A DNA stretch of 34,989 bases from the NCBI GenBank assembly GCA_903929765.1, contig CAIYVX010000070.1, forward strand, positions 1 through 34,989, written 5' to 3'. The stretch's first letter is position 1; each line of letters begins with the position of its first letter. A program made the position numbers and the translations under genes. The notes under the pieces were generated by a model, which saw only the letters and a list, made by a program, of their open reading frames with translations, ran no database searches and was not told the DNA's origin. Source of the stretch: an uncultured Planctomycetia bacterium. GTDB lineage: Bacteria > Planctomycetota > Phycisphaerae > FEN-1346 > JAACEH01. Of this stretch, positions 9,118 to 31,596 are shown piece after piece.

Positions 9118-9546
9118 ATGCTCGCCATGACCTGTCCCCAGTGCCACCGCAGCCTCATGCTCGAAGAAGAGTCGCGCGGGCAGATCACTTCCTGCCCCTA
9201 TTGCCAGACCGAATTTCGCGCCCCACTCTACGACAATGAACCCGCCGTCACCGCCAAGTCCGCCGGCTCGACCGCCGCCGACACCCTCGCCCGGGTCGCC
9301 ACGGTTTTCGCCGCCCTGGGCGCGGTCGCCATCGGAAGCCTTGTCGTCTCGAAGTTCCTGGGCCACCCGATTCCGGTGTCGCGCAGTTTGCTTCTGGGCA
9401 CCCTCGCACTGCCGGCCATCCCCATCGGCCTTTCCTGGTACAGCAATCGCCGCACCAGCGGCCCCGGATTCGTCTACGCTTCCCGCATTCTCGGCTACCT
9501 CTGGCTGCTCGGGCACGTTTACCTGGCCATGAACGGCCTGAAATAA
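9118..9546 (+). CDS. Small zinc-ribbon membrane protein, 142 aa
   Basis: N-terminal zinc ribbon with Cys 6, 9, 26 and 29, a Ser/Ala/Thr linker, then three hydrophobic segments (about 55-77, 85-103 and 118-138). Function unknown. It closely follows the zinc-ribbon gene upstream (16-base gap), and the spacing of the ribbon cysteines is the same (C-x2-C-x16-C-x2-C), so the pair may be diverged duplicates. GAAAGG precedes the ATG; an in-frame ATG three codons in is an equally possible start. Confidence 0.65.
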   Translation: MLAMTCPQCHRSLMLEEESRGQITSCPYCQTEFRAPLYDNEPAVTAKSAGSTAADTLARVATVFAALGAVAIGSLVVSKFLGHPIPVSRSLLLGTLALPAIPIGLSWYSNRRTSGPGFVYASRILGYLWLLGHVYLAMNGLK

Positions 9547-9588
9547 CGCCCCCCCCTTCTCCGCGCGCCGGCTTTGACGTAGACTAGA

Positions 9589-9612: not shown

Positions 9613-11520
9613 ATGCCCCTCAAAGCCGCCCTCGAATACAAAGCCCTCGAACTGTCGCGCCTGGCCGTGGAAATGACCACCGACGCCGGCACCGGCCACC
9701 CCTCCACCGCCCTCTCGCTCGCCCACGTCACGGCGGTCCTGATGTACCGCGTCATGCGCTGGAACCCAGCCGACCCGTGGGACATGCGGGCCGACCGGCT
9801 GGTCCTGTCCGAAGGCCACGCCGTCCCGATCGTCTACGCCGCCTGCCTCGATCTGGCCGTCGCCGTCGGCCGCTCGGCCGGCCAGTCGCGCCGCCTGCGC
9901 CGCGACGAAGTCCACGACCTGCGCAAGGCCGACAGCCTGCTCGACGGCCATCCCAACCCGGCCCTGGGCTTCCCCTTCTTCGACGCCGCCACCGGATCGC
10001 TCGGACAGGGCCTCAGCGTCGCCGCGGGGCTGGCCCTGGCCGCCCGGCTCACCGGCTCTCCGCGCCGCGTCTTCTGCGTCTGTGGCGACGGCGAAATGCG
10101 CGAAGGCCAGATCGCCGAGGCTATTGATTTCGTCAAGGATCACCATCCCGGCAACCTCTGCCTGATCGTCAACTCTAACCGCCTGGCCCAGTCCGACTAC
10201 GTCAGCCCGGAACAGTCCGCCGACGTGCTCCAGAAAAAACTTCGCGCCGCCGGCTGGGCCGTGCGCCGCGTTGACGGTCACGACGTTGCCGCCCTGGAAG
10301 CCGCCCTCTCGCGCTTCCCCAAGGGCAAGCCCCTCGCGGTCATCGCCGAAACCGTCAAAGGCTGGCACGTGGCCGAACTCCAGGGCCTGGGCCATCACGG
10401 CACGGCCCTGCCGCCGGAGGAAGCCCGCCACGCCATCGACGTGGACCTGAAGCTGCCCGACGTCCGGCCGACGGAAGACCTCACGCCGCCGAAGCCGAAA
10501 GGGAAAAAGCTCGCGGCGTGGCCTGCCCTCGTGCCGCTCGACCCGCCCGACTTCGCCGACAAGCTGAAAGCCGGCAAACTCGGCACGCGCAAGGCCTACG
10601 GCCTGGGCTTGCGCGATCTGGGACGGAAAAATTCGCTGGTCGTCGCCCTGGACGCCGACGTCAAGAACTCGACCTTCAGCGAATATTTCGCCGCGGCCCT
10701 GCCGGAACGATTTTACGAATGTAAGATTGCCGAACAGAACATGATCAGCGTGGCCTCCGGCCTGGCCGCCGGGGGCGCCCTGCCCTTCGCCAACAGCTTC
10801 GGCAAGTTCCTGGTCCGGGGCTACGACCAACTCGAAATGGCCGCCATCGGCGGGCTGAATTTGAAACTCGCCGGCAGCCATTCCGGCGTCACTCTGGCCG
10901 CAGACGGGCCGAGCCAGATGGCCCTGCTGGACCTGCCCGTCCTCCGGGCCCTCTCGCACACCCGCCTGGCCGACGGCCGCCCGATGGCCGTCATGCTCCT
11001 GCCGGCCGACGCCGTCTGCGCCTATAAGTGCGTGGAACTGGCCGCCCGGCACTTCGGCCCGGTTTACATCCGCACCCTGCGGCCTGAGTTGCCGCTCTTG
11101 TACCCGCCGGGCGAAACGTTCCAGATCGGCGGCGCAAAAGTTCTCCGCGACGGCGCCGATTTCTTCATCGCCGGTTGCTGCTACACCGTACACCTGGCCC
11201 TGGCCGCCGCCGAGAAGCTATCCGCCGAGGGAATCAGCGCGGGGGTTCTCGATTGTTATAGTCTTCCGCTGGAAGACGAGCGCGTGACCGCCCTAGCCCA
11301 GAACCCGGCGAAGAAAATCCTGGCCCTCGACGACAGCTACGTCGGCGGCATCGGCAGTGAATTGTCGGAAATTTCTGCGGCCGCCCGCGGGGCGAGGGTC
11401 GTCACGATGTGGGTGAAGGAAACGCCCAAGTCCGCGCGGGAACCGGACGAGGTCCTACGACAGACCGGCCTCGGCCTCGACGCCGTGGTCGCCCAGGCCC
11501 GGGAAGTGGCCCGAGCTTAG
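9613..11520 (+). CDS. tkt: Transketolase, 635 aa
   Basis: Transketolase moves two-carbon ketol units between sugar phosphates in the non-oxidative pentose phosphate pathway, using thiamine diphosphate (ThDP) and a divalent metal. Domain order is complete: an N-terminal ThDP-binding part with D-A-G-T-G-H-P, the S-E-G-H-A start of the active site, G-S-L-G-Q-G-L-S, and the metal/ThDP motif G-D-G-E ... N-S-N; a middle pyrimidine-binding part with the catalytic Glu in A-E-Q-N-M; and a C-terminal domain from about residue 500. A G-L-G-H-H-G-T loop is also present. The length is slightly below the usual 660 aa and resembles the more compact archaeal/animal-like transketolases. AGGAG lies 7 bases upstream inside a hairpin. 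Alternatives such as DXP synthase are disfavoured by the motifs and domain order. Confidence 0.9.
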   Translation: MPLKAALEYKALELSRLAVEMTTDAGTGHPSTALSLAHVTAVLMYRVMRWNPADPWDMRADRLVLSEGHAVPIVYAACLDLAVAVGRSAGQSRRLRRDEVHDLRKADSLLDGHPNPALGFPFFDAATGSLGQGLSVAAGLALAARLTGSPRRVFCVCGDGEMREGQIAEAIDFVKDHHPGNLCLIVNSNRLAQSDYVSPEQSADVLQKKLRAAGWAVRRVDGHDVAALEAALSRFPKGKPLAVIAETVKGWHVAELQGLGHHGTALPPEEARHAIDVDLKLPDVRPTEDLTPPKPKGKKLAAWPALVPLDPPDFADKLKAGKLGTRKAYGLGLRDLGRKNSLVVALDADVKNSTFSEYFAAALPERFYECKIAEQNMISVASGLAAGGALPFANSFGKFLVRGYDQLEMAAIGGLNLKLAGSHSGVTLAADGPSQMALLDLPVLRALSHTRLADGRPMAVMLLPADAVCAYKCVELAARHFGPVYIRTLRPELPLLYPPGETFQIGGAKVLRDGADFFIAGCCYTVHLALAAAEKLSAEGISAGVLDCYSLPLEDERVTALAQNPAKKILALDDSYVGGIGSELSEISAAARGARVVTMWVKETPKSAREPDEVLRQTGLGLDAVVAQAREVARA

Positions 11521-11521
11521 C

Positions 11522-12631
11522 CTACCGCTCGTCGAGCAGCCCGTGCCGCTGGGCGAAAATCCCTTCGAGCCGCACTTTGAGCGGCGGAAAACGCTTCGTG
11601 TCGTCCAGGTTTCGCCCAACCGCCGCCAAGAGCCGCACCAGTCCGTCGAAATCCGCCAGGCTGATCGTCTCGGCCGCCGGACGCCCGGTGGCGTCGTTCA
11701 TATTGTGATAGTTCCCCAGCGGCACGCAGCAGGCCGCCGCCTTGAACCCGTAAGTCTGAAAGACCGAGGCCTCGCACGTCCCGCCCGGCATCAATTTCCT
11801 CTGCCACAGGAACGCGGGATCCTCCGCCGCCACAGCTTCGGCGATGCGGCTCAGGCGGTAGGTCAGGTCGGGATCGAAGATGCTCGTCTTGTCGCCGACG
11901 CGAATGACCGGCCCGCCGCCGATGGGCGACTCGGGAAAACTTTTCGACGTTTCCAGCGTGATGTACCGCCCCGAGCGCGGCAGAGTCCCATCCCGGCAGG
12001 CCGCAATCGCCCCGACGAAGCCGGTTTCCTCGGCCCGCGTCAGCAGCACCCGCACGTCGCCGCGGAAGCCACGCTCGCCCAGCAGCACGTCGAGCGCCGC
12101 CAGCGCCGCCGCCACGCCCGCCGGATCGTCGCAGGAAGGGGCCAGGAGCCGCCCGGCTTTAATTCGCGGCACGCCGACGTCCCAGGTCAGAATGTCGCCC
12201 GGGCGGGCCGCCACATTGCGGGCGAAGACCACGCGCACCCGGCCGTCCAACCACGGCCCCTTGGGCCGGTGATATTCCACGACTCGGCCGCGCGCCGGCC
12301 GGTCGCCGTCGCCGTGCAGCAGGACGGGCGAACCGACGAAAAACCGTTCCAGCACATGGCCGCGAAAATCGGCCGTCACTTCCCGCGTTCCGTGAGCCTC
12401 GGCCACCACGAAGGCCGGATGATCCAGGTGGGCCGTAAAAAAAATCGGCGCCGCCGCCCGCCGCGCCGGGCCCCGGCGACGCAGAAAAAGGTTCCCGAAG
12501 CGGTCCGCTTCCACGACGACGCGCCGCCGCGCCGCCCAGGCCCGCACCCAGGCCACAACCCGCCCCTCGCGGCCCGCCGCCGTCGGCAGGCCGGTCAATT
12601 CCTTGAGCCACTGGTGATGCTTCGCCCTCAT
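11522..12631 (-). CDS. M42-family-like metalloaminopeptidase, 369 aa
   Basis: A two-metal (M20/M42 clan MH) peptidase fold is shown by the ligand set in order: H68-x-D70 in T-A-H-L-D-H-P, the bridging Asp in S-C-D-D-P-A-G-V-A, the catalytic and ligand Glu pair in T-R-A-E-E-T-G-F-V-G-A, a Glu in I-T-L-E-T, and a late His in G-N-Y-H-N-M-N-D. The D-D-x-A-G-V and E-E-x-G-x-x-G-A blocks are typical of M42 (glutamyl/leucyl aminopeptidase, FrvX/TET-like). The protein is probably cytoplasmic; no signal peptide is seen. GGAGG lies 7 bases before the ATG. The 3' end converges on transketolase with only one base between the stop codons. The substrate is not readable from sequence. Confidence 0.85.
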   Translation of the reverse strand: MRAKHHQWLKELTGLPTAAGREGRVVAWVRAWAARRRVVVEADRFGNLFLRRRGPARRAAAPIFFTAHLDHPAFVVAEAHGTREVTADFRGHVLERFFVGSPVLLHGDGDRPARGRVVEYHRPKGPWLDGRVRVVFARNVAARPGDILTWDVGVPRIKAGRLLAPSCDDPAGVAAALAALDVLLGERGFRGDVRVLLTRAEETGFVGAIAACRDGTLPRSGRYITLETSKSFPESPIGGGPVIRVGDKTSIFDPDLTYRLSRIAEAVAAEDPAFLWQRKLMPGGTCEASVFQTYGFKAAACCVPLGNYHNMNDATGRPAAETISLADFDGLVRLLAAVGRNLDDTKRFPPLKVRLEGIFAQRHGLLDER

Positions 12632-13346: not shown

Positions 13347-16300
13347 CTAGTTTGTGAACTCCTCCAGGCCTAATTCGGCTTCCTTCTCGCTCTGGATGAT
13401 GATGGTCGGCTTGACCAGGATCAGGAGGGTTTGGCTGCCCTTGTCCGAGGCCCGGTTGTTGAAGAGCCGCTTCAGGATCGGGATGTCGCTCAGAATCGGC
13501 ACGCCGGACTCGACGTCGTCCTGCTGGTAAATCTTGGAACCGCCGACCAGCAGCGTTCCGCCGTCGGGGACGCTGACTCTGGTGCGGGCTTCGGTAATCT
13601 TGATCGTCGGCAACTGGATGTTGCCGAGGGCCTGGCCGATGGTTTGGGTGGTGCCACCCGAGCCAGTGCCGGATCCGCCACCCACGCCGCTGGCGGTTGC
13701 GCCTTCCTGCACCACGAGCATACTGACCAGGTTGGCGATCTGCGGCCGCAGGTCAAGCTGGACGTACCGCCGGTCCGAACTGACCGTGGCCTTCACGTCA
13801 AGCATGGTGCCTGTCTCCAGAACGCCGACCGTCACCGAGAAGCCGACCGAGCCTTCGGCCACCACCGGGGTCAAAGCTGAGACGTAGGCCTGCTGAACGC
13901 CGTCCATAATCCAGGCCCGCTGCCCGTTCCACAGGGTCAGCCGCGGGCAGAAGAGCACGGTCGAGCGCAGGTCGGCCTGAATGGCCCGCAGCAGCCAGCC
14001 CACTTGCAAGTCGCCCAGGATGGCCCCCTGGAAGGTCATCCCGCCGCCGGAGGCGTTCGGCATCGCAATCTGGGGGCCAGTCGGGTTGGTCGGGTCTGTG
14101 CCGAATCCACTTGAGAAGGGGACGGCGCCGTTGGGTTTGAAGTACCCCGTTCCGATGGTGTTCAGGGCGGTCAAGCCGGGCAACATCTGGTCCGTGCCGG
14201 AGCCGTTCGTCGTGGTGTTATTCATGGTGAAATATGTCACTCCAGTGTGCTGATTGACATATTTAGCAGACCAATGGAAGGTCACGTCGTTCAGGAAGGC
14301 GTCGGTGACGGTGACAAACCGGGACTCGATGTTGACCATGATGGCCCGTTCGCGCCGCAGACTGTCGAGCAGTTCTGACAACTTTTTGTGTCCGTCGGCC
14401 GTCTGCGAGACGATCATCAGGCCGGTCTTGGCAAAGAACTGCATCGTCGCCCGACCGCCGGCGCTTTCCCACGGTTCGGTCGACTTGACCGATTTTTCGA
14501 TCAATTCCTGAAGCTTCTTGGTTCCATCCTCCGGCGTCTCGGTCGTGGTGGTTTCGCTGAAGAGGCCGCCACCGCCACCGCCGCCACCGCCGCCACCGCC
14601 GGAACCGGCGGAGCTCATGGCCGCACTGAGGTCAAACTTCGGGGCCGTCCCGCCGAAATCAGGTATCGGCGTCACCAGATCCTGCACGAAGTACTCGCGC
14701 ACCGGCAGGTCCGCATTGACCTTCGTCTTGGAGGAAACCAGCACCGTCCCGTCGTCCTGGACCATGGAGCTGAGCGTGTCAGGATTAAGAACCATCTTCA
14801 GGGCCTGCGCAACCGAGACGTCCTTGACGTTCAGGTTCATCGGCTCGTCCAGGTTCACGCCGGCATCGGTGATGCCCTTGCGGTCGATGACCACGTTGAT
14901 CTCGCGCGGCCGAGCCCGGGCCGCCTCGGCGATGAAGTCCAGCACGTTCCCCAGGCTCGTCTCGGTGAAGGTCAGGTTGATGCCCCACATCTCGCCGCTC
15001 ACCAAGCCCTTGGTCGCCAGCTTCTGGTTGGTGCGCGTCACGGCTTCGGTTTCGCCCGTGCTGGCCTGCACGGCTTTCATCCGTTTCTGCGTCAGGGCCG
15101 CCCATTCCTTGGCCGACGGGTAGTTCACCAGCCCGTGGAACGGAATCGCCGACTCCTGGACCTGCGTCAACGTCAGCTTCGCTTCCTGGTCGAACGTTTT
15201 CTTGACGGTAATCTCATCGGCCAGGTCGGCCAGATAGAGGTACTCGTCATGGAAGCGCCGGGCCCGCTCGTTCTGCGGATCGATGGCCAGGAGCTGATCC
15301 AGCGTGTCGGCCGCCTGCTTGTAATTGTGCAACTGGGCCTGCTGTTGCGAGGCGCTCCAGAGGCTGGCGACTTGCCGCACCCGATTCTCCCGGTCGCGGA
15401 TGCGCCGCTCCTGTTCGCGCTGCGCGATCTCGGTCAGACGACCAGTTTCCAGGGCCTGCAAACTCACCTGCCGCGCCGCCACGATCGAGGCCTGTTCGGC
15501 CTTGACTTCCTCGCGCAGATCCTCGGCCATCTCCGGCGTCAGATAACGATTCTCGTTGATCAGCCGACTGGCCAGACGAACCTGGTCCAGAGCATCATTA
15601 TAGTCCGACGGACTCCTGGCCGCGTCCTGGAGGGACTTGGCCGTGGCCACGGCTTCTTTCACCTTGGCCACCGTCCGCTGATTCTCCACGTCGATGCGGC
15701 TGGTCTCCTGGGCCACCAACGACTTCGGCGCTTCGCCCAGCATCATCGTCGCTTTCTCCAGGCCCGCCTTGGCTGCCGCATTGTCCGAATCCATCGACAG
15801 GGCGTTGCGGTAATGTAGCGTCGCCGGCCGGTACTGCGCCGTCTTCATGTCCTGCTCGGCCAGATCCATCTCCGCCCCCACCCGGGCCGCCTTGGCCTGG
15901 GCCTGAATCGCCGCCAAGTCCAGCGGCTTGGCTGCTGGAACCGGCGCCGGGGCGGCCGGCGTCACCACTTCGGCCGGCTTGACCACCGGAGCGACCGGGG
16001 TCGCCGGCGTCACCACTTCAACGGGCTTGGCCACCGGCCCAACCGGCTTGGCTTCCACCGTCACCACCGGAGCTGACTCAACCTTGACCGGCCGCACCTG
16101 ATCCGGCGTCACGATCGGCTTGGGTTCCGCCGGCGTCGTCACGGCCTGGGCCATCTTCGTTTCGGTCGCCACAGTCGCCACCGGCGCCGTCGCACCGCCC
16201 AGAATCGCCAGGCGGCTCTGGGCCTCGGCCTTGTCGGTCGCCGGCAACCGCACGTCGGCATTGACGACCGCCGTGTAGAGTTTCACGGCCTCGGCCTTGT

Positions 16301-16769
16301 TGCCGGCCTGATCGGCCTTCTTGGCCGCGGCCAGTTGGTCCTGGGCGTCCTTGCGGGCCGCCAGTTCGTCATCCGTGGCCACCTTGGTCAGGCTTTCGCG
16401 GCGTTGCGACTGCACTTCACTGAGGTAATCCAATTGCCGGGCTTTTTCCAGATGGGCCAGGGCCGTGACGAACTTCTTGTCGGCCAGGGCCGCTTCGCCC
16501 GCGGCGATCTCAGCCGACGAGGCCTCACGCTTCTGGAGGTCCTCTTTGGCTTTGGTCATGTAGAGTTGGGGCTTGTCTTTGTCGAAGTCCGCCAACTTCG
16601 ACGCATCGATACTCTGGAGCGTTTCGACCGCTTCCTGATATCGGCCTGCGTTGTAGGCGTCGATGCCCTTCTTCAGCTTGTCCGCATCGGTCTGTTGGGC
16701 CCAGACGGCGCCGCCGCAGACCACCAGGACCGTCGCCATCACCACCAGTGCGAAAAATGCGCGTTTCAA
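13347..16769 (-). CDS. TPR-containing secretin (GspD/PilQ-type), 1140 aa
   Basis: Secretins form the outer-membrane ring of type IV pilus and type II secretion machines. Order of parts: signal peptide (1-24), a helical TPR-like region with coiled segments (about 28-195 and 290-570), a Pro/Val/Ala-rich linker (about 196-280), an STN/N-domain (about 595-690), a run of 12 glycines near 726, a further N-domain (about 780-840), and the secretin core to the end, with the hallmark V-P-D-G-G-T-L-L-V-G-G near 1066 and V-P-I-L-S-D-I-P-I-L-K-R-L-F. The family is normally 500-750 aa; the long TPR front is typical of PVC-type homologues such as the Akkermansia pilus-locus secretin. It starts with TTG, six bases after a strong AAGGAGG. 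It is the last gene of a PilM-N-O-P-Q-like set; a 350-base spacer separates it from the gene upstream. Confidence 0.9.
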   Translation of the reverse strand: MKRAFFALVVMATVLVVCGGAVWAQQTDADKLKKGIDAYNAGRYQEAVETLQSIDASKLADFDKDKPQLYMTKAKEDLQKREASSAEIAAGEAALADKKFVTALAHLEKARQLDYLSEVQSQRRESLTKVATDDELAARKDAQDQLAAAKKADQAGNKAEAVKLYTAVVNADVRLPATDKAEAQSRLAILGGATAPVATVATETKMAQAVTTPAEPKPIVTPDQVRPVKVESAPVVTVEAKPVGPVAKPVEVVTPATPVAPVVKPAEVVTPAAPAPVPAAKPLDLAAIQAQAKAARVGAEMDLAEQDMKTAQYRPATLHYRNALSMDSDNAAAKAGLEKATMMLGEAPKSLVAQETSRIDVENQRTVAKVKEAVATAKSLQDAARSPSDYNDALDQVRLASRLINENRYLTPEMAEDLREEVKAEQASIVAARQVSLQALETGRLTEIAQREQERRIRDRENRVRQVASLWSASQQQAQLHNYKQAADTLDQLLAIDPQNERARRFHDEYLYLADLADEITVKKTFDQEAKLTLTQVQESAIPFHGLVNYPSAKEWAALTQKRMKAVQASTGETEAVTRTNQKLATKGLVSGEMWGINLTFTETSLGNVLDFIAEAARARPREINVVIDRKGITDAGVNLDEPMNLNVKDVSVAQALKMVLNPDTLSSMVQDDGTVLVSSKTKVNADLPVREYFVQDLVTPIPDFGGTAPKFDLSAAMSSAGSGGGGGGGGGGGGLFSETTTTETPEDGTKKLQELIEKSVKSTEPWESAGGRATMQFFAKTGLMIVSQTADGHKKLSELLDSLRRERAIMVNIESRFVTVTDAFLNDVTFHWSAKYVNQHTGVTYFTMNNTTTNGSGTDQMLPGLTALNTIGTGYFKPNGAVPFSSGFGTDPTNPTGPQIAMPNASGGGMTFQGAILGDLQVGWLLRAIQADLRSTVLFCPRLTLWNGQRAWIMDGVQQAYVSALTPVVAEGSVGFSVTVGVLETGTMLDVKATVSSDRRYVQLDLRPQIANLVSMLVVQEGATASGVGGGSGTGSGGTTQTIGQALGNIQLPTIKITEARTRVSVPDGGTLLVGGSKIYQQDDVESGVPILSDIPILKRLFNNRASDKGSQTLLILVKPTIIIQSEKEAELGLEEFTN

Positions 16770-25584: not shown

Positions 25585-27258
25585 TCAGGGGATGGACAGG
25601 CCGTTGATGAGCCGGTTCAGCAGAACGCGATCCGCCGTGACGGTGTTGCCGTCGCGGTTCAGGTCGAAGGCCCGATCAGGAATCCCGCCGACGTCCAAGC
25701 TGTCCAGTCGCTTGTTCAGCAGGCTGCGGCCGGACCCCGCCAGGTCGCCGTCGCCGTTGATGTCGCCCAGCCGCCGGACCTTGATCGTCAGGTCAGTCGA
25801 GGCCGAATTGCCCAGCTTCCCCGTCACCGTCACGTGCAACTGGCAATCGCCCACGCCGGCCACGTCGTCCGAGCGGAGGCTGCCCAGTATCAACTTCACC
25901 AGCGAACTGCCGCGAGGATCATTGCCCACCGTCACCGCGCCGCTACCCGTCTGGGTCACCGCAGTCGTGAACGATGTGTTGCCGCCGGGATTCAGAATGG
26001 TCACGGTCAGTGTGCTGGCGTGTGGCCCCAACAGGGCGGCCATCGTGCCCGGCGTGTTCTGATAAACCCAGTTGAAGTCTGTTGACACCGTCATGGCCAG
26101 CACAGGCGTAAGGATCACCGTGTAGTACCAACTCGCCCCGATAGCCGTGACACCCGCCAGGTCATCCTGCACGGGCGAGTGCCGTTCCGTCGTCGTCCCG
26201 TCGCCTAACTGGCCATACACGTTCCAGCCCCAAGACCAGACCGTGCCGTCGTTCTTCAGGGCCGCCGTATGGTAGGAGCCCGCCGCGATAGCCGCGACAC
26301 CCGTCAGGCCGGAAACCTGCACGGGCGAGTGCCGATCCGTCGTCGTTCCGTCGCCCAACTGGCCGGAGTCGTTGTCGCCCCAGGTCCAAACCGAGCCGTC
26401 GCTCTTCCGGGCCACCGTGTGGTATAAGCCCCCCGCGATAGCCGCGACGCCCGTCAGGCCGGAAACCTGCACTGGCGTGAGCCGCATCGTCGTCGTCCCG
26501 TCGCCCAACTGGCCATTCCCGTTCCAGCCCCAAGCCCAGACCGTGCCGTCGCTCTTCCGGGCCACCGTGTGTAAGTTGCCCGCCGCAATAGCCGCGACGC
26601 CCGTCAGGCCGGAAACCTGCACCGGCGTGAGCCGATTCGTCGTCGTCCCGTCGCCGAGTTCGCCATCGTTGTTGTAGCCCCAGGCCCAGATCGTGCCATC
26701 ACTCTTCAGAGCCACCATGTGTTGCCAACCTGTGGCAACAGCCACGACACCCGTCAGGCCGGGAACCTGCACCGGCGAGGGCCGTTCCGTCGTCGTCCCG
26801 TCACCCAACTGGCCGTGGGCGTTCCAGCCCCAGGTCCAGACCGTGCCGTCGCTCTTCAGGGCCGCCATCTGGAAGCCGCCCGCCGCGATAGCCGCGACAC
26901 CCGTCAGGCCGGGCACCTGCGCCGGCGTGAGCCGCGACGTCGTCGTTCCGTCACCCAACTGGCCATACGGGTTGCCACCCCAGGTCCAAACCGTGCCGTC
27001 GCTCTTCAGGGCCGCCATGTGATAGCCACCCGCCGCGATAGCCGCGACGCCCGTCAGGCCGGAAACCTGCACCGGCGTGAGCCGCGTCGTCGTCGTCCCG
27101 TCGCCCAACTGGCCATACCCGTTGTAGCCCCAGGCGAAAACGATATCGGATTGGGCCTGCGCGAGGGGTGGCGCCGCCAGCACGGCCAGCAACACAGCCA
27201 AGACCACTGCCACACACCGCTCTAGAAAACCCAGGACTGTCACCCTATTTTCCTCCAT
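25585..27258 (-). CDS. Secreted RCC1-repeat protein with C-terminal dockerin-like domain, 557 aa
   Basis: A signal peptide (about 1-36, ending A-Q-A-Q) is followed by seven near-identical blades of about 49-50 residues, each with W-G-x-N-x-x-G-Q-L-G-D-G-T-T-T and V-S-G-L-T-G-V: RCC1-type beta-propeller repeats, enough for a closed seven-blade ring. An Ig/cadherin-like beta domain follows (about 380-495). The last 60 residues hold two EF-like loops typical of dockerin type I: D-I-N-G-D-G, whose twelfth position is Gly instead of Asp, and a canonical D-L-N-R-D-G-N-T-V-T-A-D. Dockerins bind cohesins in cellulosomes; planctomycetes carry many that are unpaired. The start at 27258 is chosen for AGAGGA upstream; an in-frame GTG at 27240 is an alternative. 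It is probably cell-surface. Confidence 0.85.
   Translation of the reverse strand: MEENRVTVLGFLERCVAVVLAVLLAVLAAPPLAQAQSDIVFAWGYNGYGQLGDGTTTTRLTPVQVSGLTGVAAIAAGGYHMAALKSDGTVWTWGGNPYGQLGDGTTTSRLTPAQVPGLTGVAAIAAGGFQMAALKSDGTVWTWGWNAHGQLGDGTTTERPSPVQVPGLTGVVAVATGWQHMVALKSDGTIWAWGYNNDGELGDGTTTNRLTPVQVSGLTGVAAIAAGNLHTVARKSDGTVWAWGWNGNGQLGDGTTTMRLTPVQVSGLTGVAAIAGGLYHTVARKSDGSVWTWGDNDSGQLGDGTTTDRHSPVQVSGLTGVAAIAAGSYHTAALKNDGTVWSWGWNVYGQLGDGTTTERHSPVQDDLAGVTAIGASWYYTVILTPVLAMTVSTDFNWVYQNTPGTMAALLGPHASTLTVTILNPGGNTSFTTAVTQTGSGAVTVGNDPRGSSLVKLILGSLRSDDVAGVGDCQLHVTVTGKLGNSASTDLTIKVRRLGDINGDGDLAGSGRSLLNKRLDSLDVGGIPDRAFDLNRDGNTVTADRVLLNRLINGLSIP
26160..27140 (-). repeat. Seven tandem RCC1-encoding DNA repeats (147-150 bp each)
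   Basis: The units are alike at DNA level as well as in protein: the stretch CCCGTCAGGCCGG recurs at about 26302, 26449, 26599, 26750, 26900 and 27050. Synonymous sites are largely shared between units, which points to recent unit duplication or gene conversion. Confidence 0.85.
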
Positions 27259-27312
27259 CCATTGTCCTCTTTCGCGGTCGACCAACGGACAACGGTCGCA
27301 AACGCCAGCCCA

Positions 27313-27378
27313 CGCTCGTTGTCGTCGGACTATCCATAACCCTCTAGTGTGCGCCGCCGCCAATAGTCAAACGCAAAG
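27313..27378 (-). repeat. Second copy of the receiver-gene start region
   Basis: A 66-base copy of 25402-25470 in the same orientation, upstream of the RCC1 gene. It keeps the ATG and first codons; from this ATG (27337) a 30-codon frame runs to a TAG that overlaps the RCC1 leader. The 3-base loss shortens the promoter-like spacer and the -10-like box is CACACT. Confidence 0.85.
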
Positions 27379-27465: not shown

Positions 27466-28749
27466 TCAGTTGTTCCGATTGCGGACGTACTTGACCATGA
27501 GTTCCTGCCCTGGCATGGTGGCCCAGGAGTATTCTCTCAGCAGGTCGGACATCGTCGTCAACATCCAGGGGTGAATCTGCGTGGCGCCGTTCTTCGTGTA
27601 GACCACATCGTCGGCGATGAACACCGCCCCATGGATGATCCGGCCGCCTGTTTCCACGAGAAGCACCACGTCGCCGAACCGGGGATCATTGGTGACCTCA
27701 TAGTAGTCGGTCTTCAGCACGGTATTGAAGTGCTCGGGGTAAGGGAAGCCTGGATCAGACTTGTTCTGAAGAAAATTCAAGGCCGTCCAGAAGCAGTCGC
27801 GTATGACTACCGGACCGTCGGCCGTATTCTGCGGCTGCGGGAAGGAATAGAGCAGCCCCGCCGGCCGGGGCGGCAGGATCAACGCGATATTCGCCCAGAC
27901 CCCACCCGGAATCTGGTTCAGGGATTCGAACATAGCCTTGACGTCCGCGCGCCAGCATCCCTTGCCATAGTACTCGGTCAGGGCCTTGATGTCGGTCTCC
28001 GGCGTGACGTGCAACTTAAGAAGCAACGTGTTCTCGCGATAGATGGCCTGCGCAATCCGGCAGCGGTCGTCGTAGTTGGGCAGTTCCGACATCAAGCACG
28101 GCAGGCTGGAGAAGAACAGGCGATCCCCGCTGACTGACGACATCTTCTTAAACATGTTAACCGCCAGGCTTGAAGCACCACACTCGCGGAGATTCCTTTC
28201 AATGGTCGGTTTGTCAAACACGATGACCTGGCCCTCATTCTCGGAAAAGCGGCCGAGGACTTCCAGGAGCATCTGGCGCGCTTTGGGCGACATCGACACC
28301 ACGATCTCCCGAGGCGGCGTCAGTTCGAGGCCGACGGGAACGGTACGGAGGCATTCGGGGCGCAGCAACTGCGCTCGCGCGGCGGCCGGGAGCTCCGCGG
28401 CCTCGAGCAGTTTCACCAGATCCTCGCGCGAAAAACCTTTGAAGAGCCAATGCGTCTGCTTCGCTTCCCAATCTTTCATCGGCAGCAAGCTGTCCGGCGG
28501 CGCAATCGGCATCGGAATGCATTCGATCTCCCCCCACGGCCCGGATTTCAGAATTCGCGTTCCGGGAGCAGACGAATTGGGTGCGGCCTGCATCTGCCGG
28601 GTAGCCAAGATGCGGCCCAACATGAATGACAGGCCACAAGCCGCCAGCAGAAACGCAACGAAAACGACCACATATAACTTGCGCCGGGGCCTTCCGGTCT
28701 TCGCCGGTCTGTCCTGAGGCGGTTTCTTCTGCGGTGATCCTACGCCCAT
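27466..28749 (-). CDS. Membrane-anchored protein with possible NlpC/P60-like C-terminal region, 427 aa
   Basis: The family is not recognised as a whole. A basic cytoplasmic head (1-24) is followed by one helix (about 25-47), so the body is outside the membrane. Residues 60-300 show no familiar motif. Near the end, D-C-F-W-T-A-L-N-F-L, then G-D-V-V-L-L-V, I-I-H-G-A-V-F-I-A-D-D-V-V-Y-T-K-N-G, resembles the Cys ... His order and strand pattern of papain-like NlpC/P60 cell-wall hydrolases. This is tentative: the third catalytic residue cannot be assigned. GGGAGG lies about 10 bases before the ATG. GC content is a little lower than that of neighbours. It lies downstream of the structured RNA gene on the same strand. 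Confidence 0.65.
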   Translation of the reverse strand: MGVGSPQKKPPQDRPAKTGRPRRKLYVVVFVAFLLAACGLSFMLGRILATRQMQAAPNSSAPGTRILKSGPWGEIECIPMPIAPPDSLLPMKDWEAKQTHWLFKGFSREDLVKLLEAAELPAAARAQLLRPECLRTVPVGLELTPPREIVVSMSPKARQMLLEVLGRFSENEGQVIVFDKPTIERNLRECGASSLAVNMFKKMSSVSGDRLFFSSLPCLMSELPNYDDRCRIAQAIYRENTLLLKLHVTPETDIKALTEYYGKGCWRADVKAMFESLNQIPGGVWANIALILPPRPAGLLYSFPQPQNTADGPVVIRDCFWTALNFLQNKSDPGFPYPEHFNTVLKTDYYEVTNDPRFGDVVLLVETGGRIIHGAVFIADDVVYTKNGATQIHPWMLTTMSDLLREYSWATMPGQELMVKYVRNRNN

Positions 28750-28934
28750 CGTTCGTCAGCCTCCCTCTGGTCAACAGTCCACGGAATAGTACGCATTTAC
28801 CCCTCCCCACGCTGGTTTACAATATTAACGTACAATGCGGCAAAAAATTGCCCTTTATTCCAGACCCCGCGGCGGTTGGTGGGAGCAAAGTATTGTGCAG
28901 AACTAACTGTCGCTCTACCGGGGCGGCGCTCCCG

Positions 28935-28977
28935 AAAAAGAACCTGGGCCGACGTCGGCTCTTTTCGACGTCGGCCC
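28935..28977 (-). terminator. Terminator of the structured RNA gene
   Basis: Perfect 12-bp stem GGGCCGACGTCG (28946-28957) and CGACGTCGGCCC (28966-28977), 8-base loop, and TTCTTTTT immediately after when read leftward. No T-run on the other side, so the transcript is on the minus strand. Confidence 0.85.
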
Positions 28978-29427
28978 GGCTCAAAAATTCATCGCGGCCT
29001 ACGGTCGCGATGGTGCATATTAAATGAGGAGCGTCGCGCCGGGCAATAGCCTCCCCCGAGTTACGGTCAAGAGCTGCCGCCTCGATTCGAGACCCCCTTT
29101 GCGGGTCGCTCGCCAAAATCGATGCGTCTCAACCATAAAGGGATCGGCAGGGCCCTCCGCCCTTTGTTCCGAAAGTGGTCTTGCGGATTAGACCACTCTC
29201 TTCGCCTCTCCCCGCAACTTGCAGCGCCCAGCCCTTGTCGCCAAGAGCCTGCGCTTCTTAACGCCCGACCACGGACGCTCCTCGTTCGAAAGCCTCCTCT
29301 ATATTCTCGGCCGGCCACTTCGCCGGCGACGGACTGCGAAAACAACGGGGCCGAACTCGGCGTCCCTTTTCCCTTAACGGACGCTACGAACTCGACCCCG
29401 GGTATACGCACTTCTTGCTCCGCCCTC
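28935..29427 (-). ncRNA. Unclassified structured RNA gene, about 490 nt
   Basis: There is no plausible protein in 28750-29532. On the minus strand a strong promoter with an AT-rich upstream block (-35/-10 at 29434-29462) starts a transcript near 29427, and a 12-bp hairpin terminator ends it near 28935. Inside are many stems: 29347-29354 with 29392-29399 (one pair is G-U only in the minus-strand RNA), 29360-29365 with 29379-29384, GCCGGC pair 29310-29327, an 8-bp hairpin 29174-29197, GACCC/GGGTC 29091-29107 and CATCGCG/CGCGATG 28990-29012. I find none of the fixed core motifs of RNase P RNA, tmRNA or SRP RNA. The expression signals resemble those of abundant housekeeping RNAs. Its family is unknown to me. 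Confidence 0.65.
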
Positions 29428-29433
29428 ACTGAA

Positions 29434-29500
29434 AGAATAGTCCATACTCCGCGCAAAGTCAAGTCATAATCACAAAAATTTGCTTTTATTGTACAAGATA
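29434..29500 (-). promoter_or_regulatory. Strong promoter with UP-like element for the structured RNA
   Basis: -35 TTGACT (29457-29462), a 17-base spacer and -10 TATTCT (29434-29439): near-consensus with ideal spacing. Directly upstream (29463-29500) lies an A/T-rich block with A and T runs in an otherwise GC-rich region, as in UP elements of stable-RNA promoters. Confidence 0.75.
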
Positions 29501-29532
29501 TTTTTTCCGCCAAAGTCGCGGTTTGACGCTGT

Positions 29533-31596
29533 TTACCCTCCCTGGAATCCCGTTTCCCGCAACCGGCGATATAAATCGCACCGGGCCAGCAACGCCTCAT
29601 GCTCGCCCACGTCCACGATCCGCCCGGCGTCCATGACCACAATTCGCCGCGCCAGGCTGATGGTGGACAGTCGGTGCGCAATAATGATCACCGTCCGGCC
29701 GGCCGCGAACCGCTCCAGCGTGTCCTGGACGAACATCTGCGTCTCCTCGTCCAGGGCGCTGGTGGCCTCGTCCAGGATCAGAATCGCCGGATCGCGGATA
29801 ATCGCCCGGGCCAGGGCCAACCGTTGCCGCTGGCCGCCCGAAAGGGTCTGGCCCAGCGTGCCGACGTCGCCGTCGTAGCCGCCCGGCATTTTTTCGATGA
29901 ACTCCGCCGCATGGGCCATCTCGGCCGCCGCAACGATCTCCTCGCGCGTCACCCGCCCGGCCCGCCCGTCTTTGCGCATGGCCGGGCGGCTCCCGTAGGC
30001 GATGTTGTTGGCTATCGTGTCCTTGAACAGCATCGTGTCCTGCGACACGAGGCCGATCTGGTCCCTCAGGCTGCGCAGCGTCACGTCCTGAATGTCGCGC
30101 CCGTCGATGGTGATCCGACCGGAAGTAGGAATGTAAAATCGTGGAATCATGTTCACCAGCGTGCTCTTGCCGCAACCCGTCCGCCCGACCACGGCAATCG
30201 TCTCGCCCGCAGCAATCCGCAGCGACACGTCGCGCAGCACTTCGCCGGCCTCCGGGTTGTAGGAGAACCCGATCCGCTCGAAAGCCAGTTCCTTCTGGAG
30301 GCGCGGCAGGACCACGCCCAACCGGCCGCTCCGCGGCTCCGACGCCGCGTCGATCAACTCGAAAATCCGTTCCGCCGAGTTGCGAGCCATCTGGAGCCGG
30401 TTGTTCACGTCGGCCAGTTTCCGCATCGGATTGAAGGCCGCCACCAGCGCTCCGAAAAAGGCGATCACCATGGGAGCGCTCAGATCCTTTGCTCCCGATT
30501 CCAGAATGTAGGCAAAAATCACCAGGGCCACTGAGATCAGCAGCGTGGCGATGAATTCCAGCGTCGGACCCGAGGCCGCCCGCGTCCTGAACGCCTTCAA
30601 GGAAAATCTCAGGAACTGCCGCCCCTCGCGGAAAAACCGTTTCCGTTCCCGACCTTCCATGCTGTAAGCCTTGACCACCCGCAGCCCCGCCAGCGCTTCC
30701 TCCAGAATCCCCAGGATCGACGAGGCCGACATCAGCAGCCGCTTCGTCGCCCGCCGCATCCGCGCCGCAAACGTCCGCATCACGATCACCCCGACCGGCC
30801 CGACCACCACCGCCAACAGCAGAATCCGCGAGTCGATCCTCACCGCCATCATAATGGCCAGCACCAGCATCGCCACGCTCTGAAGCGGCTGAATCACCAG
30901 CGTCCCGAAAATCGTTCCGATACCTTCCTGAATGTAATAGGCGTCCATGATCAGCCGGTTGCTCGCGTCCGACGTGCCGCTCTTCTGAAAATACCCCAGC
31001 GGCAGACGCAGGACGTGGTCGAAGGCCCGATGGCGAATGTCCAGCGTCGCCCGGCTGGCCACCGAACCGATCAGCGACCCGTTGACGTAGCGCAGCACCC
31101 CGCGCAACGCCGTCACCGTGACGGTAAAGACCATGATCCAGAACAGCGTTTTCCACCGCTCCTTGGGCAGCGAACTGACCACCCGCTCCAGCAGATCGTG
31201 GTACTTGAAGCCCAGGATCGCTTTACCCTGGCTTTTGTCCACATATTGCCAGAGGCCGCCGCGAATCGTCCGGTAGCCCGCCGGAACTTTGACCTGGCGG
31301 GCCTCCAGATCGACTTCTACTTTCGTCGCCCCCGGGTCGGCCGGAACGATCTCAAAACCCGGCGGCACCCCGGTAAACGGTTGTTCGCGTTCCTGCTTCG
31401 TGCCCGGCTCTTTGACCTTCTGGGTGCCGACGACCACGGTCTTGCTGGTGTCGAAGAGCACCGTGAAGAGCGGCAGGAGCGTGGTGATGCTCACGAAATA
31501 GAGCACGGCCACCAGGCCCGCGCAGACCCAGGCCGCGGCCACCTGGTTGCGGTACGGCCAGACGAATTTCAGAACGCGTCGGAACGTTGTGTACAC
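29533..31596 (-). CDS. ABC exporter, fused permease and ATPase (MsbA-like), 687 aa
   Basis: Half-transporter that would work as a homodimer in the inner membrane to flip lipids or export drugs or peptides. The membrane domain (to about 390) has six helices; the C-terminal ATPase has Walker A G-R-T-G-C-G-K-S-T (about 474), Q-loop V-S-Q-D, signature L-S-G-G-Q-R-Q-R (about 582), Walker B I-L-I-L-D-E-A-T-S-A-L-D and H-loop I-A-H-R-L-S-T. Odd point: about 100 residues (about 48-145) are inserted between helices 1 and 2, far longer than the usual loop, probably an extracytoplasmic domain. It starts with GTG after GGGAGAG. Substrate unknown. Confidence 0.92.
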   Translation of the reverse strand: MYTTFRRVLKFVWPYRNQVAAAWVCAGLVAVLYFVSITTLLPLFTVLFDTSKTVVVGTQKVKEPGTKQEREQPFTGVPPGFEIVPADPGATKVEVDLEARQVKVPAGYRTIRGGLWQYVDKSQGKAILGFKYHDLLERVVSSLPKERWKTLFWIMVFTVTVTALRGVLRYVNGSLIGSVASRATLDIRHRAFDHVLRLPLGYFQKSGTSDASNRLIMDAYYIQEGIGTIFGTLVIQPLQSVAMLVLAIMMAVRIDSRILLLAVVVGPVGVIVMRTFAARMRRATKRLLMSASSILGILEEALAGLRVVKAYSMEGRERKRFFREGRQFLRFSLKAFRTRAASGPTLEFIATLLISVALVIFAYILESGAKDLSAPMVIAFFGALVAAFNPMRKLADVNNRLQMARNSAERIFELIDAASEPRSGRLGVVLPRLQKELAFERIGFSYNPEAGEVLRDVSLRIAAGETIAVVGRTGCGKSTLVNMIPRFYIPTSGRITIDGRDIQDVTLRSLRDQIGLVSQDTMLFKDTIANNIAYGSRPAMRKDGRAGRVTREEIVAAAEMAHAAEFIEKMPGGYDGDVGTLGQTLSGGQRQRLALARAIIRDPAILILDEATSALDEETQMFVQDTLERFAAGRTVIIIAHRLSTISLARRIVVMDAGRIVDVGEHEALLARCDLYRRLRETGFQGG

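Follow-up and report, generated by a model that had tools for sequence, protein, structure and literature searches.

A probable free-standing structured RNA gene shared by two genera of a Phycisphaerae family

The window (the whole 34,989-nucleotide stretch of DNA analyzed here) carries a minus-strand locus that we read, with a probability of roughly two in three, as a standalone gene encoding a structured noncoding RNA (ncRNA) of about 485 nt, equipped with its own promoter and terminator, belonging to an undescribed family and predicted to act in trans. Computation on the sequences of two genera shows a promoter, a terminator, a fold conserved through compensatory changes and no linked gene. 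These are the marks of large standalone structured ncRNAs, and the RNA is a new family of this known kind.

The locus occupies a gene-free gap (28750-29532) that is bounded exactly by two minus-strand ORFs, one for a 427-aa protein (27466-28749) and one for an ABC transporter (29533-31596). A preliminary description of this DNA had proposed, within a gap of about 780 bases, a near-consensus promoter (TTGACT-N17-TATTCT), a 12-bp terminator hairpin with a T-run and at least six internal stems, and each of these features was recovered. The promoter lies at 29462-29434 on the minus strand and matches nine of the 12 consensus letters; two promoter-like sites were seen in the region against 0.3 expected. 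The 12-bp core stem of the terminator spans 28977-28946; with GAGCC/GGTTC added, the stem reaches 28982-28940, and UUUUU comes next, at 28939-28935. The minus-strand RNA has a minimum free energy of -253.8 kcal/mol, compared with -205.1 ± 6.6 kcal/mol in dinucleotide-shuffled controls (z -7.4, 0 of 100 controls), and its predicted structure has about 12 or more helices. Over 28940-29425, the minus strand folds at -243 kcal/mol versus -201 kcal/mol for the plus strand, in agreement with the choice of the minus strand that had been argued previously from a G-U pair. The parts of the gene are as follows:

28935-29427, minus strand: whole RNA gene; the start (about 29427) and the U-tract end (28935) are placed from the promoter and terminator
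29434-29462, minus strand: sigma-70-type promoter TTGACT-N17-TATTCT; same -35 element and N17 spacing in the homolog
28935-28982, minus strand: intrinsic terminator, a 12-bp GC stem extending to 17 bp with one bulge, then UUUUU
29013-29411, minus strand: outer closing helix GUGCGUAU/AUAUGCAC (29411-29404 with 29020-29013), from the centroid fold and predicted for the window sequence only
29346-29400, minus strand: long hairpin of the 5' domain, CGGGGUCGAGUUCG...CGAGUUCGGCCCCG, then a U-rich stretch; homolog counterpart CCGGGGGUUGUGA...
29310-29327, minus strand: small GCCGGC hairpin of the 5' domain, from the predicted fold
29026-29283, minus strand: core domain closed by P1, GAGGAGCG(UC)/(GA)CGCUCCUC, from the fold and the homolog alignment
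29223-29255, minus strand: P3 stem-loop (AGCGC / GGCUCUUG...); its 8-bp distal helix covaries, with five double changes
29209-29221, minus strand: invariant junction strand CAAGUUGCGGGGA, 13 of 13 letters the same in both genera
29139-29213, minus strand: three-way-junction domain GGGGA..GGC / GCC..UCCCU; helices 5 and 6, 100% paired
29171-29200, minus strand: 11-bp hairpin GAGAGUGGUCU/AGACCACUUUC with five double compensatory changes; its loop holds the invariant UCCGCAA (29187-29181)
29149-29163, minus strand: hairpin AGGGC-GGAGG-GCCCU with an invariant GGAGG loop (alignment helix 8)
29061-29138, minus strand: long peripheral arm UUAUGGUUGAGA.../...UCUUGACCGUAA with 11 double compensatory changes (helices 9-13)
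28990-29012, minus strand: hairpin CAUCGCG...CGCGAUG between core and terminator, without a counterpart in the alignment of the homolog

We built a covariance model, R1, from the single window sequence (29287-29027) and searched 120 relatives with it. One strong, full-length match was obtained (G001:C78:87710-87985, 46.9 bits, E = 2.7e-9), the next-best match among the 120 genomes having an E-value of 0.16; BLAST detected no homolog in 60 relatives. The matching genome (record JAAYDY010000088.1, Phycisphaerae bacterium AS06rmzACSIP_597) is of a different genus and is the only other genome of the same taxonomic family examined; we refer to it as the sister genome. At this locus (L048), a promoter with the same -35 element and a spacer of 17 (TTGACT-N17-CATAAT, 9532-9560) and a 14-bp terminator (9999-10030) are present, and the RNA folds with z = -6.45, at -259.7 kcal/mol on the RNA strand versus -209.7 kcal/mol on the opposite strand. 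Identity between the cores of the two genera is about 55%, with invariant runs of 13, 9, 9, 7 and 7 letters (CAAGUUGCGGGGA, CGAGGAGCG, GGAGGGCCC, GGCGAGC and UCCGCAA), four of the five falling in P1, the junction strand and two loops. The outer seven modeled pairs of P1 are the same in the homolog and the next pair is compensatory.

Covariation with a related genome, which the preliminary description had named as a check on the RNA, was thus found in this sister-genus copy, where double changes keep the pairing. In an alignment fitted to the model (A4), 92.3% of cells are paired and 27 of the 91 pairs have changed on both sides with pairing kept, against 40 to 49% of cells and one to five double-changed pairs in controls in which the helix partners were slid. 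A4 holds two sequences only and is fitted to the structure, so its pair counts favor that structure. A MAFFT alignment made from sequence only (A3) gives a weaker signal, with 15 compatible versus 11 incompatible double changes, partly because hairpins are misregistered there; for both reasons the pair count is not to be read as a p-value. The E-value of R1, the promoter and the terminator are independent of this count. Covariation is strongest in the hairpin at 29200-29171, the long arm at 29138-29061 and the distal helix of 29255-29223. Since the same fold recurs with altered letters in a related genus, we conclude that the RNA is real, and the discrete, large, minus-strand structured RNA proposed earlier is borne out by the promoter, the terminator, the z score of -7.4 and the shared structure. 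A protein-coding reading was rejected. The best match in any frame (E about 9e-4, 52 aa long) is explained by conserved nucleotides, and the spacing of the two most conserved blocks changes from 21 nt to 22 nt between the genera, a shift that no reading frame would survive.

Within the reach of these tools, the family appears narrow, being seen so far in two genera of a single Phycisphaerae family, because model, motif and BLAST searches gave no further copy. A two-sequence covariance model (R2) found none beyond the two known, either when 397 genomes of the class were scored shallowly (four candidates per genome) or when all eight genomes of the order were scored deeply (150 candidates), and BLAST found none in phage and plasmid records. 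The exact motif CAAGTTGCGGGGA-N-TCCGCAA gave eight genome matches in the genome and viral collections against about 12 expected by chance (our estimate), and only one of the eight, in a record of the sister genome (L050), fits the model; a match in a metagenome-assembled genome (L049) looks coding by eye. A looser pattern matched 54 of the 397 class genomes, where inspection by eye gave no further candidate with the hairpin. Near-threshold R2 matches in two genomes (L058 and L060) were set aside, as they appear by eye to lie within a recombinase-like coding stretch, and a partial R1 match in another genome (G005, E 0.16) was not reproduced with R2. Distant copies could have been missed by these searches.

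The arrangement of conserved and varying parts suggests how such an RNA might work. Transcription would start at a dedicated sigma-70-type promoter and stop at an intrinsic terminator belonging to the same gene. The GC-rich P1 helix is predicted to close a domain with a three-way junction that would hold nearly all of the invariant single-stranded letters, namely CAAGUUGCGGGGA, the UCCGCAA loop and the GGAGG loop. Within the first of these, UUGCGGG (29217-29211) is complementary to UCCGCAA (29187-29181) in both genera and neither varies; the two could form a pseudoknot, and CAAGUUGCGGGGA and the loop are probably paired in this way. The covarying peripheral arms would then act as scaffold, while a protein, another RNA or further copies of the same RNA would bind at the invariant core. 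Taken together, the RNA is probably a trans-acting scaffold built around its invariant junction.

We considered whether the RNA could instead be a cis-acting leader (a riboswitch or attenuator) of the downstream gene for the 427-aa protein, sensing something and letting its terminator decide on read-through. Between the end of the RNA and that gene lie about 190 nt; both are on the same strand, and a terminator closes the RNA. In the sister genome, another structured RNA is found immediately in front of PEP-CTERM genes. However, the neighbors differ between the genera: an ABC transporter and the 427-aa protein flank the RNA in the window genome, whereas the homolog has a TPR protein upstream and, downstream, PEP-CTERM-like genes in the opposite orientation. 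Downstream of the homolog, its strand is free of genes as far as another structured RNA at a distance of 2.4 kb; this RNA lies directly in front of the first same-strand gene, which is more than 2.7 kb from the homolog. The sister genome contains no match to the 427-aa protein, and about 485 nt is very long for such an element. Across the two genomes, then, the conserved link to a downstream gene or pathway by which riboswitches and attenuators are recognized was not seen. We regard the leader as unlikely; the different neighbors and the lack of a same-strand gene downstream of the homolog argue against it and for a free-standing, trans-acting RNA.

The 427-aa protein is probably membrane-anchored and is without a Pfam match. 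Its remote relatives (25 to 29% identity) occur in three genomes of the class, one of which (G057) has five copies; an attempt to trace synteny through this neighbor met only these remote paralogues and none in the sister genome. Nearby in the window, a 592-aa protein (25585-27363, minus strand) contains RCC1 repeats in seven stretches, forming a type of beta-propeller more familiar from eukaryotes, and a 1140-aa ORF (13347-16769, minus strand) has a secretin domain at its C-terminus. With a simple pattern, no PEP-CTERM tail was recognized in the window.

The structured RNA that lies 2.4 kb downstream of the homolog (RNA2; L048:12452-12777, plus strand, z -5.55) is about 320 nt long, branched and, as far as tested, undescribed. 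A covariance model of RNA2 (R3) brought up two further copies in the sister genome, at E-values of 2.5e-21 and 1.3e-7; the additional loci are L114:1501-1821 and L115:1501-1775, both on the plus strand. The seven remaining genomes of the order gave no match. In the model-fitted alignment, 45 of the 112 pairs are double-changed, compared with three to eight when the partners are slid, and the copies end in a conserved terminator, GGGGGACG...CGUCCC. Each of the three copies immediately precedes a same-strand gene with a PEP-CTERM signal at its end, the signal of the third gene being below the Pfam cut-off (16.4 versus 20.7 bits). RNA2 thus looks like a possible leader or attenuator of exosortase substrates. 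A link between RNA2 and the RNA of the window (RNA1) through the core was rejected, as R2 does not match RNA2. RNA2 and the homolog of RNA1 share a 5' hairpin motif, CCGGGGGUUGUG... (L048:9588-9640 and 12495-12560), which is weak, its local alignment score being reached by 11 of 300 shuffles. We speculated that the standalone RNA1 and the leader RNA2 might form a lineage-specific superfamily of large ornate RNAs, with a 5' module in common and with cell-envelope proteins under their joint control. We hold this to be doubtful; if true, it would represent an RNA-based regulatory layer for exosortase substrates, undescribed before.

Another hypothesis is that the RNA is a regulator that acts in trans by base pairing, the exposed GGAGG loop serving as a decoy for, or antisense to, ribosome-binding regions. 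Between the two genera, this loop and the stem beneath it hardly vary. However, GGAGG is short, and an extensive rigid structure with conserved junction letters, rather than one open seed, fits a scaffold better, so that we consider this role quite unlikely.

The comparison with known RNAs bears on whether the locus could be a housekeeping RNA (SRP RNA, 6S RNA or another Rfam family) so divergent that it escapes detection. The RNA resembles RNase P RNA, tmRNA and 6S RNA in size or in the expression signals typical of housekeeping RNAs: it is large and single copy, with a promoter and terminator of the type usual for abundant RNAs. The search with Rfam covariance models that had been proposed was run (Rfam 15), and nothing in the whole window reached a gathering score. 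A permissive cmscan of the interval (E ≤ 5) returned only RF02932 and a 17-nt match, with no match to the models of RNase P RNA, tmRNA, 6S RNA or SRP RNA (RF00169 and the long forms), and a scan of the homolog locus (E ≤ 0.5) met no family. The preliminary description had likewise not found core motifs of RNase P, tmRNA or SRP RNA, and ARAGORN detected no tmRNA in the window; RNase P RNA (RF00010; G000:C114:25774-26156, 282.9 bits) and tmRNA (RF00023; G000:C94:51910-52266, 146.6 bits) of this genome are encoded on other contigs. RF02932 (Betaproteobacteria-1 RNA) matches 29279-29167 over the full length of its model (26.0 bits, E = 0.011) and was rejected as the identity of the RNA, since it misses the gathering score of 49.4 and the model rings across the class. 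Among 150 relatives, matches with E-values of 0.003 to 1 occur in 46 genomes, none above the cut-off, and the model also rings weakly, below the cut-off, in E. coli and Corynebacterium controls; given similar scores in unrelated genomes and the ringing in controls, we judge the match to be chance.

A disguised 6S RNA deserves separate mention, as RF00013 has no match in the window genome at E ≤ 1; the lineage may lack 6S RNA or have a divergent one. However, 6S RNA is a long hairpin with a central bubble, unlike the multibranched fold predicted for the 485-nt RNA here, and the sister genome has a separate, sub-threshold 6S candidate (G001:C27:162331-162515, 36.4 bits) besides the RNA homolog. 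We thus find a divergent housekeeping RNA very unlikely. The preliminary description had left the choice between a new family and a very divergent known one; the absence of an Rfam family and the homolog in a sister genus speak for the former, and the latter is disfavored. That the locus is no RNA gene at all, simply a GC-rich intergenic stretch with chance hairpins, would suit a GC-rich genome and the failure of BLAST among 60 relatives, and is made extremely improbable by z scores of -7.4 and -6.5, a promoter and terminator in both genera, the model match at E = 2.7e-9 and 27 double compensatory pairs.

We return to the free-standing, trans-acting RNA. Planctomycetota are poorly sampled for RNA, and the covarying homolog turns a guess from a single genome into a model that can be used for metagenome searches, probing and imaging. 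Few bacterial RNAs combine such size with an elaborate conserved fold. Among them, OLE, ROOL and GOLLD are large ornate ncRNAs of conserved structure and poorly understood function that have been reported as homo-oligomers (PMC12286853), and these assemblies were unexpected. Neither the window nor the interval has a sequence or covariance-model match to any of the three, and no phage, prophage or tRNA-island setting of the OLE/ROOL/GOLLD type was seen for the RNA described here. The OLE and ROOL examples are longer, at 577 and 659 nt, respectively (PMC12286853). Like those RNAs, however, the RNA of the window is large and elaborately branched, and OLE, ROOL and GOLLD (PMC12286853), while not its families, may be what it works most like.
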